NCBI GenBank assembly: GCA_023381755.1
Contig: JAMCUF010000028.1
Location: 1-44,779, forward strand
Source: Deltaproteobacteria bacterium
GTDB taxonomy: Bacteria > SZUA-79 > Acidulodesulfobacterales > Acidulodesulfobacteraceae
Length of the DNA stretch: 44,779 nucleotides
Direction: 5' to 3'
Made by a program: the position numbers and the translations under genes. Under the pieces are notes generated by a model. It was not told where the DNA came from and made no database searches. It saw only the letters and a program-made list of their open reading frames with translations. This document shows, in pieces, positions 1,813-40,500 of the stretch (positions are counted from its first letter, which is position 1; every line of letters begins with the position of its first letter).

Positions 1813-1841
1813 ACAATTAAATAACCCCGTTTGTGATAAAC

Positions 1842-1847
1842 TATAAT
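1842..1847 (+). promoter_or_regulatory. Candidate -10 element for the radical SAM operon
   Basis: A perfect TATAAT lies 41 bp upstream of the radical SAM start codon. No good -35 hexamer sits at 16-18 bp spacing. The 24-bp repeats lie just upstream, which would fit an activator-dependent promoter, but this is inference. Confidence 0.35.
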
Positions 1848-1888
1848 AAATCTAAAATACAATATATTCTATTCTTGGGAGAATTAAC

Positions 1889-2905
1889 ATGGATGCATAT
1901 AATAATCAAAGCCAAAATAACGAGTTTTATGTCCAATGGCATTTTACCGAATCTTGCAATTTAAGATGTATCCACTGTTATCAAAATGATTATAACCGTA
2001 AAGACTTAGACTTAAATCTGCTTGAATCCATTTTTTTAAAAATAGACGAAGCTATGTCTAAATGGAAAATGGGATGTTTTATTTCATTAACGGGCGGGGA
2101 ACCGTTTTTAAAACCGGACAGCCTTTTTTACTTGGCAGGCTTAATCGAAAAATCGGATAACTTTAAAAATATCGCTATATTGACAAACGGCACATTAATT
2201 GACGATGAAATAATCAATGAGATAAAAAAATACAAGAAGATTTCCGAAATTCAAATTTCTCTCGACGGACACGATGAAAAAACACATGATAGAATAAGGG
2301 GGAAGGGAACCTTTTTAAAATCGGCGGAATCCATTAAAAAACTTAAGAACGCGGGTATCAAAACATCGATAATGTTCACCCTTCATAAAAAAAACGCAGA
2401 GTACGCAGTAAATATGCCGGAACTGGCCGCTTCTTTAAATGCGGATACCCTGACTATCGAAAGAATGACGACCATGAGCAAGACCGAAAAAGAGGAGTTT
2501 TTTATCGAGGCTTCCGAGTTGAAAAGAATTTACTCGGATGTTTATCATAAAGCAAAAGAGGGGGTTTTTAATAAGGGCGTTAAACTTATAACGTCAAGGC
2601 CTTTATGGAATTTGGTGGATGAAAATGCCGGCGGCTACTGTCCGGTTGGGCTTTCTTCGATATGCATTATGCATGACGGAACTTTGCTGCCGTGCAGGAG
2701 GCTTTATCTGCCGCTCGGCAATATTTTATCCGACGGGCTTTTCAAAATATGGTATAATTCCGATATTTTATGGCAAATGAGAAAAAAGAATGGCAAAAAC
2801 AAATGTTCAGGCTGTCCCCATATCGAAAGATGCGGCGGGTGCAAGTCTGTAAGTTATTACTGTAACGGGGATTTCAATACAAAAGATCCCCAATGCTGGA
2901 TATAA
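1889..2905 (+). CDS. Radical SAM/SPASM protein, probable peptide- or cofactor-modifying enzyme
   Basis: This 338-residue protein has an N-terminal radical SAM domain with the CX3CX2C cluster motif (C23, C27, C30) and GGEP at 69-72. A C-terminal SPASM-type region has Cys at 251 and a dense set near the end (C306, C309, C315, C318, C325, C336), enough for auxiliary Fe-S clusters. The ending (CGGC, then GD and DPQCW) resembles PqqE/AhbC/NirJ-type enzymes. The start is ATG with a GGGAGA site. A PqqD-like gene follows 18 bp after the stop. The pair suggests RiPP maturation, as with PqqE and PqqD. No precursor peptide, heme d1 or PQQ genes are present, so the substrate is unknown. Confidence 0.88.
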   Translation: MDAYNNQSQNNEFYVQWHFTESCNLRCIHCYQNDYNRKDLDLNLLESIFLKIDEAMSKWKMGCFISLTGGEPFLKPDSLFYLAGLIEKSDNFKNIAILTNGTLIDDEIINEIKKYKKISEIQISLDGHDEKTHDRIRGKGTFLKSAESIKKLKNAGIKTSIMFTLHKKNAEYAVNMPELAASLNADTLTIERMTTMSKTEKEEFFIEASELKRIYSDVYHKAKEGVFNKGVKLITSRPLWNLVDENAGGYCPVGLSSICIMHDGTLLPCRRLYLPLGNILSDGLFKIWYNSDILWQMRKKNGKNKCSGCPHIERCGGCKSVSYYCNGDFNTKDPQCWI

Positions 2906-2923
2906 AGGGAGGATATAAGATAT

Positions 2924-3187
2924 ATGAAAATATTCAAACTTTCCGAAAATGTAAGCGTAAAACAGGATGGAGAAAATTATATGCTTTTTGATAACCTAAA
3001 TGGAAACATTTATAAATTAAACGCGGTATCATATAAGATTTTATCGTTATGCGACGGGGAAAACACGGATGAGGATATAATACAAAACATAACAAATACC
3101 TTTAATGCCGCCAAGGAAGAGACGGTAAAAGATTTTAACGATTTAATGCAAAACCTTTTAGAAAGACGGTATGTTTCAAATATATAA
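2924..3187 (+). CDS. PqqD family protein (RiPP recognition element-like)
   Basis: An 87-residue protein whose pattern fits the PqqD fold: an N-terminal basic/hydrophobic strand, DNLNGNIYKLNAVSYKILSL, an acidic turn (GENTDED), then a helical half ending in LLERRYV. PqqD-like domains are winged-helix-like modules that bind leader peptides and present them to a radical SAM partner. A strong AGGGAGG (2906-2912) lies directly after the stop of the upstream radical SAM gene, so the two form one operon. The function is inferred from fold similarity and context. A diverged PqqD with a non-peptide role cannot be excluded. Confidence 0.72.
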   Translation: MKIFKLSENVSVKQDGENYMLFDNLNGNIYKLNAVSYKILSLCDGENTDEDIIQNITNTFNAAKEETVKDFNDLMQNLLERRYVSNI

Positions 3188-3329
3188 TATAACCCGGCAT
3201 ATTCATCATTAATGCAATAATACAATGCACAATTACCGGACTTTCCTATAATTTTATATTTTAGCAAAAGTATATGTGATATATTAGCATATATTTAAAC
3301 ATATTTTATCGGGGGGATTTATTTACAAT

Positions 3330-3905
3330 ATGGATATTAAAAATGCGGCTTACCCGGCCCTGCATTTATGGTGGAGATACTACTGGAGAATAGGGCTATT
3401 TCTTTTTGTAATAGGAATCATCTTTGTTATTATAGGAAATTTTATCCTTGGCATAAACGGAATGATGTTTTTTGTTAAAATGATAAAAACCCCTCCGTCC
3501 CATATTGCGCCTTACGGCATGAAAGTATTGAGCGTAATACTGGCGCTAATATTTATATTTTTTATTGCAGCACTATTGTTTGAAATATGGCTATTTCGTT
3601 CCGCGCTTTTTAAGAAAAGTTTCGTTTTTAACGGTAAATCGGAAAGATTTTCGGTAAATTACGACAACACGGTTTTAAATACCCCTTTGGCGTGGGGTAA
3701 TGCGTCGAGGCTTTGGTGGGGCGTTTTCTGGCGCGGATTTGTCCTAAGCATTATTGCGCACTTGCTATTTTTTTGGATGGGCCCTTTAATGATACTAATT
3801 AATATTGCCGTGGGTTATTTGGCGTTTTTATGGCTTTTATCATATAATTATGGAAAGTCTAAGGTAACCGTATCGGCATTAACCGGCGATTCTACCGGTC
3901 TTTAA
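3330..3905 (+). CDS. Hypothetical membrane protein with a duplicated LWWxxxWR motif
   Basis: A 191-residue protein that I do not recognise. It has about four hydrophobic segments (near 21-44, 64-90, 136-150 and 151-172) and a central polar loop (about 95-125). A motif occurs twice, 115 residues apart: LWWRYYWR at 13-20 and LWWGVFWR at 128-135, each just before a membrane segment. This suggests an internal duplication of a two-helix unit. It lies 142 bp after the PqqD-like gene, same strand, with its own purine-rich site (about 3312-3317). It could belong to the radical SAM operon or be independent. No catalytic motif or signal peptide is evident. Confidence 0.65.
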   Translation: MDIKNAAYPALHLWWRYYWRIGLFLFVIGIIFVIIGNFILGINGMMFFVKMIKTPPSHIAPYGMKVLSVILALIFIFFIAALLFEIWLFRSALFKKSFVFNGKSERFSVNYDNTVLNTPLAWGNASRLWWGVFWRGFVLSIIAHLLFFWMGPLMILINIAVGYLAFLWLLSYNYGKSKVTVSALTGDSTGL

Positions 3906-39477: not shown

Positions 39478-40500
39478 TTGGATAAGCTCAAACCTTTGAC
39501 GGACAGTCATGGCAGAAACATAACTTACTTAAGGGTAAGTATAACGGACAGGTGCAATTTAAGGTGTGTTTACTGTATGCCGGAAAGTGGCGTTAACCTT
39601 TTAAATCACGATGAAATAATATCTTATGAAGATATTTTGAGATTTGTTAGCGTGCTGGCGAATCATGGCGTTAATAAGGTAAGAATTACGGGCGGAGAAC
39701 CGTTAGTAAGAAGAGGTGTGGTGGGTTTCATAGAACGCTTGAGTAAAATAGAAGGCATAAGCGATATTTCCATGACCACGAACGGCGTTCTTCTTGATAA
39801 ATTTGTATTGGGACTTTATGATGCCGGACTTAAAAGGATTAATATCAGCTTAGACTCTTTAAGAGAAGATAGATTTCACCGAATAACAAGGTTTGGCGGT
39901 TTACAGTCTGTTTTTAACGGCATAAAGCTTGCGGGAAAAATTGGTTATAATCCTATAAAAATTAATACGGTTTTAATAAAAGGGATAAATGATGATGAAA
40001 TCGAGAGTTTTGTTAATTTCGCAAGGGAATTTGATTTAAATTTAAGATTTATCGAATACATGCCTGTTGGCGGAAATATCACGGAAACTATCATGTCCAA
40101 GGAAATAGAAGAGAAAATCCGGTCGATATTTAGCGATTTTAGCTTAATAGCCGGCAGTCAAAATAATAACGATAATGCCTATGAAAATCCGGTTAGTAAA
40201 GATTTCGGATTCAAAGATAGCAATGCGATTATCGGTTTTATAAGCCCTTTATCCGAGCATTTCTGCGGTGATTGCAATAGGTTAAGGCTTACGGCATCGG
40301 GCAGTTTAAGACTTTGCCTTTTTTATGACAACGAGTACAATATAAGGGAAATTTTGGGCGAGCGGGATGATGAGGTCGTTTTTGAAAAGGTTTCAGATAT
40401 AATTCAATTGAAACAGTATAAACATAATTTTAACGAAAAGGCCAAAAAGCCCGGTTTCTTATCATGGGCTAACAATTTTATGAATGAAATCGGGGGATAA
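39478..40500 (+). CDS. moaA: GTP 3',8-cyclase MoaA (molybdenum cofactor biosynthesis)
   Basis: A 340-residue radical SAM enzyme. DRCNLRCVYCMPESG is the N-terminal cluster motif. RITGGEPLVRRG and MTTNGVLL follow. The C-terminal second cluster is FCGDCNRLRLTASGSLRLCLF, and the chain ends in GG, needed for activity in the family. It turns GTP into 3',8-cyclo-7,8-dihydro-GTP, the first step of molybdopterin synthesis. The start is TTG (39478) with a weak GAGGG site. No other moa genes are in the window. It is upstream of gyrA in the same direction. Confidence 0.95.
   Translation: MDKLKPLTDSHGRNITYLRVSITDRCNLRCVYCMPESGVNLLNHDEIISYEDILRFVSVLANHGVNKVRITGGEPLVRRGVVGFIERLSKIEGISDISMTTNGVLLDKFVLGLYDAGLKRINISLDSLREDRFHRITRFGGLQSVFNGIKLAGKIGYNPIKINTVLIKGINDDEIESFVNFAREFDLNLRFIEYMPVGGNITETIMSKEIEEKIRSIFSDFSLIAGSQNNNDNAYENPVSKDFGFKDSNAIIGFISPLSEHFCGDCNRLRLTASGSLRLCLFYDNEYNIREILGERDDEVVFEKVSDIIQLKQYKHNFNEKAKKPGFLSWANNFMNEIGG

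Follow-up and report, generated by a model that had tools for sequence, protein, structure and literature searches.

The locus studied here raises the question of what a radical SAM enzyme and a PqqD-like protein act upon when no precursor peptide is encoded beside them. Both genes lie in a stretch of 44,779 bp (contig C9 of genome G000), here called the window (Table 1). The initial annotation, made from the window alone, had described a SPASM-type radical SAM gene with a PqqD-like gene 18 bp further on, and the open reading frames and Pfam domains agree with this. It had seen no precursor near the pair, and we likewise found no precursor-like ORF in the window, even with TGA codons read through; nor did any Rfam family match within it. 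The upstream neighbour, on the opposite strand, is pabB, and the downstream neighbour is mnmG.

Table 1. Features of the pair and its immediate surroundings in the window.
Feature	Position	Strand	Details
Upstream region of the radical SAM gene	1830-1888	+	TATAAT-like box and leader common with G001; sequence match
Radical SAM/SPASM maturase	1889-2905	+	338 aa; Pfam Radical_SAM 4.3e-27, SPASM 5.3e-8
Predicted discrete RiPP recognition element (RRE), PqqD family	2924-3187	+	87 aa; Pfam PqqD 2.3e-11
Membrane protein	3330-3905		191 aa; LWWRYYWR and LWWGVFWR

The membrane protein does contain the duplicated LWWxxxWR motif reported for it, and a Pfam search with it gave no match. Its proposed place as the third gene of the cassette did not survive comparison with relatives: in G001 and G002 its homologues occupy other contigs and are not near the pair, and in no other genome does the gene adjoin it. 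We therefore rejected it as a member of the system.

Some further features of the window were recorded. The first 33 nt of the contig (1-33) occur again within pabB, at 1217-1249, and the contig may therefore end in repeated sequence. Two direct copies of ATAACAGTCACTTAGGGAA (a 19-nt repeat in a 24-nt unit; chance expectation 0) stand upstream of the radical SAM gene at 1771-1813. We considered this repeat as a signature of mobility and discarded the idea as unsupported, the repeat being seen, among the loci fetched, in the window's own sequence and in no other genome. A MoaA-like radical SAM gene at 39478-40500, upstream of a gyrA-like gene, has 25% identity to the enzyme of the pair and is unrelated to it.

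Classification of the radical SAM enzyme and its partner

We compared the radical SAM protein with the curated NCBIfam models, including those for PqqE, AhbC/D, NirJ and GeoRSP that had been suggested as a check, and it fell under every cut-off. The best profiles were GeoRSP (TIGR04303; 136.6 bits) and ACGX (TIGR04340; 135.4 bits), each with a cut-off of 400 bits, followed by SbtM (TIGR04082; 129 bits against 350, covering profile positions 195-515 only). Scores were lower still for AhbD (about 125 bits against 500), AhbC (96 against 650), NirJ (91 against 515) and PqqE (74 against 381). The PqqD-like protein reached 21.5 bits against the GeoRSP PqqD model, for which the cut-off is 100. The pair is thus outside every curated NCBIfam subfamily, and membership of the GeoRSP, ACGX or SCM groups was rejected on the missed cut-offs.

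A role in the synthesis of PQQ, heme d1 or heme from siroheme (as for AhbC, AhbD or NirJ) would account for the weak similarity seen across SPASM proteins, such as the AhbD score of about 124 of 500 bits. However, the closely related genome G001 encodes AhbC (694 bits, cut-off 650) and an AhbD-like protein (485 bits, cut-off 500) as separate neighbouring genes, and the orthologues of the radical SAM gene form a single clade (100/100) far from the AhbC/AhbD-type genes in our tree. Since branches outside the family clade are long, we used only that clade. Given the profile scores, the separate genes and the tree placement, we dismissed a heme or PQQ function, to which we give practically no credence, and the pair stands outside these subfamilies as the initial annotation had supposed.

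The enzyme contains a CxxxCxxC motif (C23, C27 and C30) and seven SPASM cysteines that are invariant among orthologues (C251, C269, C306, C309, C315, C318 and C336; alignment A4). Its AlphaFold2 model (pLDDT 86) is closest, among PDB folds, to SkfB, SuiB and CteB, three enzymes of RiPP maturation. The model of the PqqD-like protein (pLDDT 95.8) gave RRE-leader complexes as its top Foldseek matches, the best being 5v1v (TbiB1-leader; TM 0.84), consistent with a predicted RRE fold.

Of the 30 genomes in the window's family, 23 have an orthologue of the radical SAM gene (61-84% identity); the comparison genomes outside this family are kin at the "same domain" level at nearest. The family probably corresponds to Ca. 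Acidulodesulfobacteriota, known from acid mine drainage. A search for spread on plasmids (tblastn, 1e-30) gave no match. Wherever the contig extends far enough, PqqD follows the radical SAM gene, with the exceptions of G007, where it is missing, and G018. Conservation of the pairing over this range of identity indicates that it is not due to chance, and the loss of pairing in relatives that would have spoken against the earlier reading was not seen. In G018 (L041, L158) the pqqD gene beside the radical SAM gene is broken by stops, and an intact pqqD adjoins the precursor described below on another contig.

The precursor peptide and its genomic location

All small ORFs near the radical SAM orthologues were compared without prior selection, in line with the search for a conserved short ORF that had been recommended from the window. 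Apart from PqqD and from frames that overlap known genes, a single family was common to many contexts, a 39-codon ORF behind PqqD, and no other non-overlapping small sense ORF was common to different contexts around the orthologues. Its consensus is MKKxYxxPLFxEIxAEEFYxLIxExYGxKDSCYS[U]KxCK. Most copies reach a TGA after KDSCYS, the others continuing with CKxCK; if the TGA is read through, the next stop usually follows KxCK or KxCKK. Searches of NCBIfam and Pfam with the precursor gave no significant match.

Of the 30 family genomes, 27 have the precursor, whereas a search of 356 other genomes gave no copy. In 17 genomes it stands directly behind PqqD, with a strong SD site (AGGAGGTGA), in a strict order rSAM-pqqD-precursor that is kept at several different chromosomal sites. 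These genomes hold, side by side, an RRE domain protein and a short precursor with a conserved leader adjoining a maturase, as RRE-dependent RiPPs do. Together with the predicted RRE fold, the conserved ORF behind PqqD bears out the reading of the pair as the core of a RiPP maturation system.

In the precursor leader, Y5 and P8 are invariant (alignment A1) and are followed by x-[F/L/I]. The RREs of lasso peptides recognise [Y/W]xxPx[L/V/I/F/A] (PMC13381572), and a related motif, W/Y/LxxP/L/I, is recognised by PqqD and StsC (PMC12710340). Judged by its aligned residues, the precursor thus carries the YxxPx[LVIF] motif of lasso-peptide RREs.

The window's genome contains exactly one copy of the precursor, with one TGA, encoded in trans (G000:C24:12086-12202, minus strand; 3e-19). 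Thus, the precursor that seemed to be missing exists, and the suggestion that it might be encoded elsewhere was correct. This copy occupies the place at which G001 has the complete arrangement of promoter, rSAM, pqqD and precursor. In both G000 and G002 the precursor directly follows the promoter region of the operon (at least 25 invariant bases), as would result from excision of the pair. The box upstream of the radical SAM gene in the window resembles that of G001 (TATAATAAA.CTAAAATA.AATATATT in the alignment), which suggests that the pair moved together with part of its promoter, and the region at 1830-1888 appears, from this resemblance, to have travelled with it. A pabB or pabC gene lies near the radical SAM gene in three lineages (G016, L044; G006, L048; and the window), a recurrent setting outside the ancestral pal site.

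The precursor is split from the pair, as in the window's genome, in G007, G009 and G011 as well. Five genomes have a precursor and no radical SAM orthologue (G002, 97% complete, L153; G003, L154; G019, L155; G014, L156; G012, L157), three of them with the Cys form discussed below, and G010 has neither gene. These five, and the five genomes in which the radical SAM gene is apart from the precursor, would be explained if the pair matured another, unseen substrate and the selenopeptide were an unrelated neighbour. Such an arrangement is hard to reconcile with the strict operon order in 17 genomes and at different sites, with the match between RRE and leader motif, and with the lack of any other small sense ORF common to the contexts. 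Furthermore, 22 of the 23 genomes with the radical SAM gene have the precursor, and in the one exception that gene runs off the contig end. We consider an unseen substrate very unlikely, and take the 39-codon peptide as the probable substrate of the pair.

Probable selenocysteine at codon 35

Comparison across relatives suggests that the precursor is a selenocysteine peptide, which the reading of the window had missed. Among 31 distinct copies, codon 35 is TGA in 22 and Cys in nine, and is never TAA or TAG. In the core, C32, Sec/Cys35 and C38 are invariant as chalcogens. The in-frame stop after codon 35 is TAA in 16, TGA in 11 and TAG in six of all 33 copies. The four codons past codon 35 have a pN/pS of 0.15-0.17, a value of purifying selection, indicating that they are read as protein.

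A hairpin lies 3' of the UGA in 24 of 24 TGA copies, with a stem of 5-8 bp, a loop of 3-5 nt, a G among the first two loop nucleotides and a distance of 19-26 nt from the UGA to the loop. All 24 fall within the geometry of the bSECIS model, which has a stem of 4-16 bp, a loop of 3-9 nt that has a G within its first two nucleotides and a position 16-37 nt from the UGA (PMC13188914). The same model sets an MFE of -7.5 kcal/mol or lower (PMC13188914), and values of -7.6 in the window's genome, -12.4 in G007 and -5.5 in G006 were obtained, shuffled sequences folding about as well as the hairpin of the window's genome. In the hairpin alignment (A2) 98.6% of cells are paired, against 10-66% in slid registers, and three pairs are changed on both sides; as the sequences are related, we take this covariation as support and not as proof. 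Most of the nine Cys copies no longer have such a hairpin.

Components of selenocysteine insertion are widespread in the family, with SelA present in 19 of 19 genomes tested, SelB above cut-off in 18 of 19 and tRNA-Sec above cut-off in 16 of 19. In the window's genome selA is split between the ends of contig C24, which carries the precursor, and contig C27, at a distance of about 10 kb from the precursor; in many relatives selA is 10-12 kb from the precursor site. Neither SelB nor tRNA-Sec was found above cut-off in this MAG, which is 85.6% complete.

If the UGA were an ordinary stop, the precursor would be a 34-residue Cys peptide ending in KDSCYS, and the hairpin a terminator or regulatory structure. 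Readthrough is predicted here from sequence, and in favour of a plain stop several copies meet another TGA a few codons on. Against this stand the selection past the UGA, the Cys at codon 35 in nine copies and the lack of TAA or TAG at this codon, even though TAA and TAG make up most of the final stops. The loop is SECIS-like, with its G at the right spacing and no long U-run behind it, and the Sec machinery is present in most relatives. We regard an ordinary stop as highly improbable, still more so than an unseen substrate, and favour decoding of the UGA as selenocysteine.

Sec is not needed for the association of pair and precursor, since G005 has the pair and two precursors in Cys forms only. 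Four precursor copies were found in G008 (L047, L163), among them a Sec form (CYVURACF) and a Cys form (CHTCRACF) that share the same hairpin and make up a natural Sec/Cys pair. As the paralogues of this genome show natural Sec-to-Cys replacements, a clean test of what selenium contributes to radical SAM peptide chemistry is possible.

Proposed maturation pathway and related systems

We propose that the pair is, very probably, an RRE-guided radical SAM pathway that matures a CxxUxxC selenopeptide. The PqqD-like RRE would bind the leader of the 39-residue precursor through Y5-x-x-P8-x-[FLI] and present the C-terminal core, KDSC32-Y-S-U35-K-x-C38-K, to the SPASM enzyme, UGA codon 35 being decoded as selenocysteine with the aid of the SECIS hairpin just downstream. 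The enzyme would then most likely form a chalcogen-carbon bond at Sec35, at Cys32 and Cys38 on either side of it, or at both, giving a thio/selenoether or a thio/seleno-heterocycle. We suggest such an RRE-guided bond on the strength of the RRE fold, the leader motif, the SPASM cysteines, the RiPP-maturase-like model and the invariant chalcogens of the core. The ancestral arrangement was presumably a single rSAM-pqqD-precursor operon; in the window's genome the pair sits at the pabB/mnmG site, to which it seems to have moved, and the precursor remains at the ancestral pal site near selA, directly behind the old promoter.

Sec-containing RiPPs are already known. They were proposed by Haft and Basu 2011, as cited in PMC4979651. 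Thio(seleno)oxazole RiPPs and their radical SAM chemistry were later studied by Lewis et al. 2021, cited in PMC13188914, with formation of a thio- or seleno-oxazole reported for SbtM. The SbtA/SbtM system (TIGR04081/TIGR04082) resembles ours in pairing a SPASM radical SAM enzyme with a short precursor that has an in-frame Sec codon. The pair could accordingly be a divergent SbtA/SbtM system whose enzyme makes a thio- or seleno-oxazole, given that Sec occurs in both substrates and that SbtM is the only one of the three best NCBIfam models with reported chemistry. However, the enzyme falls well short of the SbtM cut-off and lacks the fused N-terminal region of SbtM, the RRE being a separate protein here, and the SbtA model had no matches in the family genomes, nor do the precursors match it. 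The leader is of the YxxP type, whereas that of SbtA is hydrophobic, and the core is CxxUxxC, with a Lys directly after Sec and a Cys at both -3 and +3 relative to it, in contrast to the G-U-G-G of SbtA (AAQSG-U-GG, L174). As both the SbtM and SbtA tests failed and the precursor is without a significant NCBIfam or Pfam match, we set the system apart from SbtA/SbtM, and judge a divergent form of the latter unlikely.

The proposed RRE-guided pathway shares individual features with several other systems. ACGX and GeoRSP are its top two enzyme profiles, and GeoRSP also has a PqqD family member, but neither the enzyme nor its partner reaches the respective cut-offs. The RREs of lasso peptides (TbiB1) and PqqD are alike in fold and leader motif, but the partner here is a radical SAM enzyme, and no lasso cyclase or protease was seen beside the pair. 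SkfB and CteB (sactipeptide/ranthipeptide maturases) and SuiB are the nearest solved enzyme folds, and act on Cys-containing cores, but identity is only about 18-23%, the RRE is unfused and the core here would contain Sec. Finally, the UGA with Cys homologues, the hairpin with its loop G and spacing, and, in most relatives, the sel genes are all features of bSECIS selenoproteins, although the product would be a 39-residue peptide with its own maturase rather than a redox enzyme.

There is no conserved exporter, protease or immunity gene, and for this reason the product seems more likely to be an intracellular selenopeptide or cofactor with a redox or metal-binding role than an antibiotic or bacteriocin. 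Very few cases of Sec in ribosomal natural products are known, and here a whole bacterial family keeps a putative selenopeptide precursor together with a predicted leader-binding protein and a radical SAM enzyme. This appears to be a rarely described way of making a natural product or cofactor that contains selenium. Such systems escape notice: with 39 codons and an in-frame UGA the precursor is shortened by gene callers, and it may sit on a different contig from the maturase.

More tentatively, as a possibility somewhat short of even, the pair may represent the first branch to be recognised of a broader class of RRE-guided radical SAM systems in several phyla that act on peptides with Cys or Sec at every third residue (CxxUxxC here, CxxUxxU in G278 and G141, and CxxCxxCxxC in G025 and a paralogue in G009) and that yield a selenium-containing redox or metal-handling cofactor and not a bacteriocin.

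In G278 and G141 (L092, L094), which belong to an unrelated family, a conserved short ORF, MKKE[LF]DKKTLEKETDFWNKIKD[SN]LKKGSGKVCRK-U-KS-U, lies between two tandem radical SAM genes of a related clade and ends VCRK-TGA-KS-TGA-TAG. It is accompanied by a covarying hairpin (AGUUGUC/GACAACU and AGCUGUC/GGCAGCU, with the same AGUUU loop), and may possibly encode a peptide with two selenocysteines (CxxUxxU). Right after PqqD in G025 (L056) and at the G009 paralogue locus (L057) we identified Cys-only candidate precursors with a YxKP leader, ...YEKPILKKE...CRQCSGCHGCR and ...YKKPEIKQE...CRQCSSCHACR, respectively, in clusters that also hold a squalene-hopene-cyclase-like protein, an asparagine-synthase-like protein and a glycosyltransferase.
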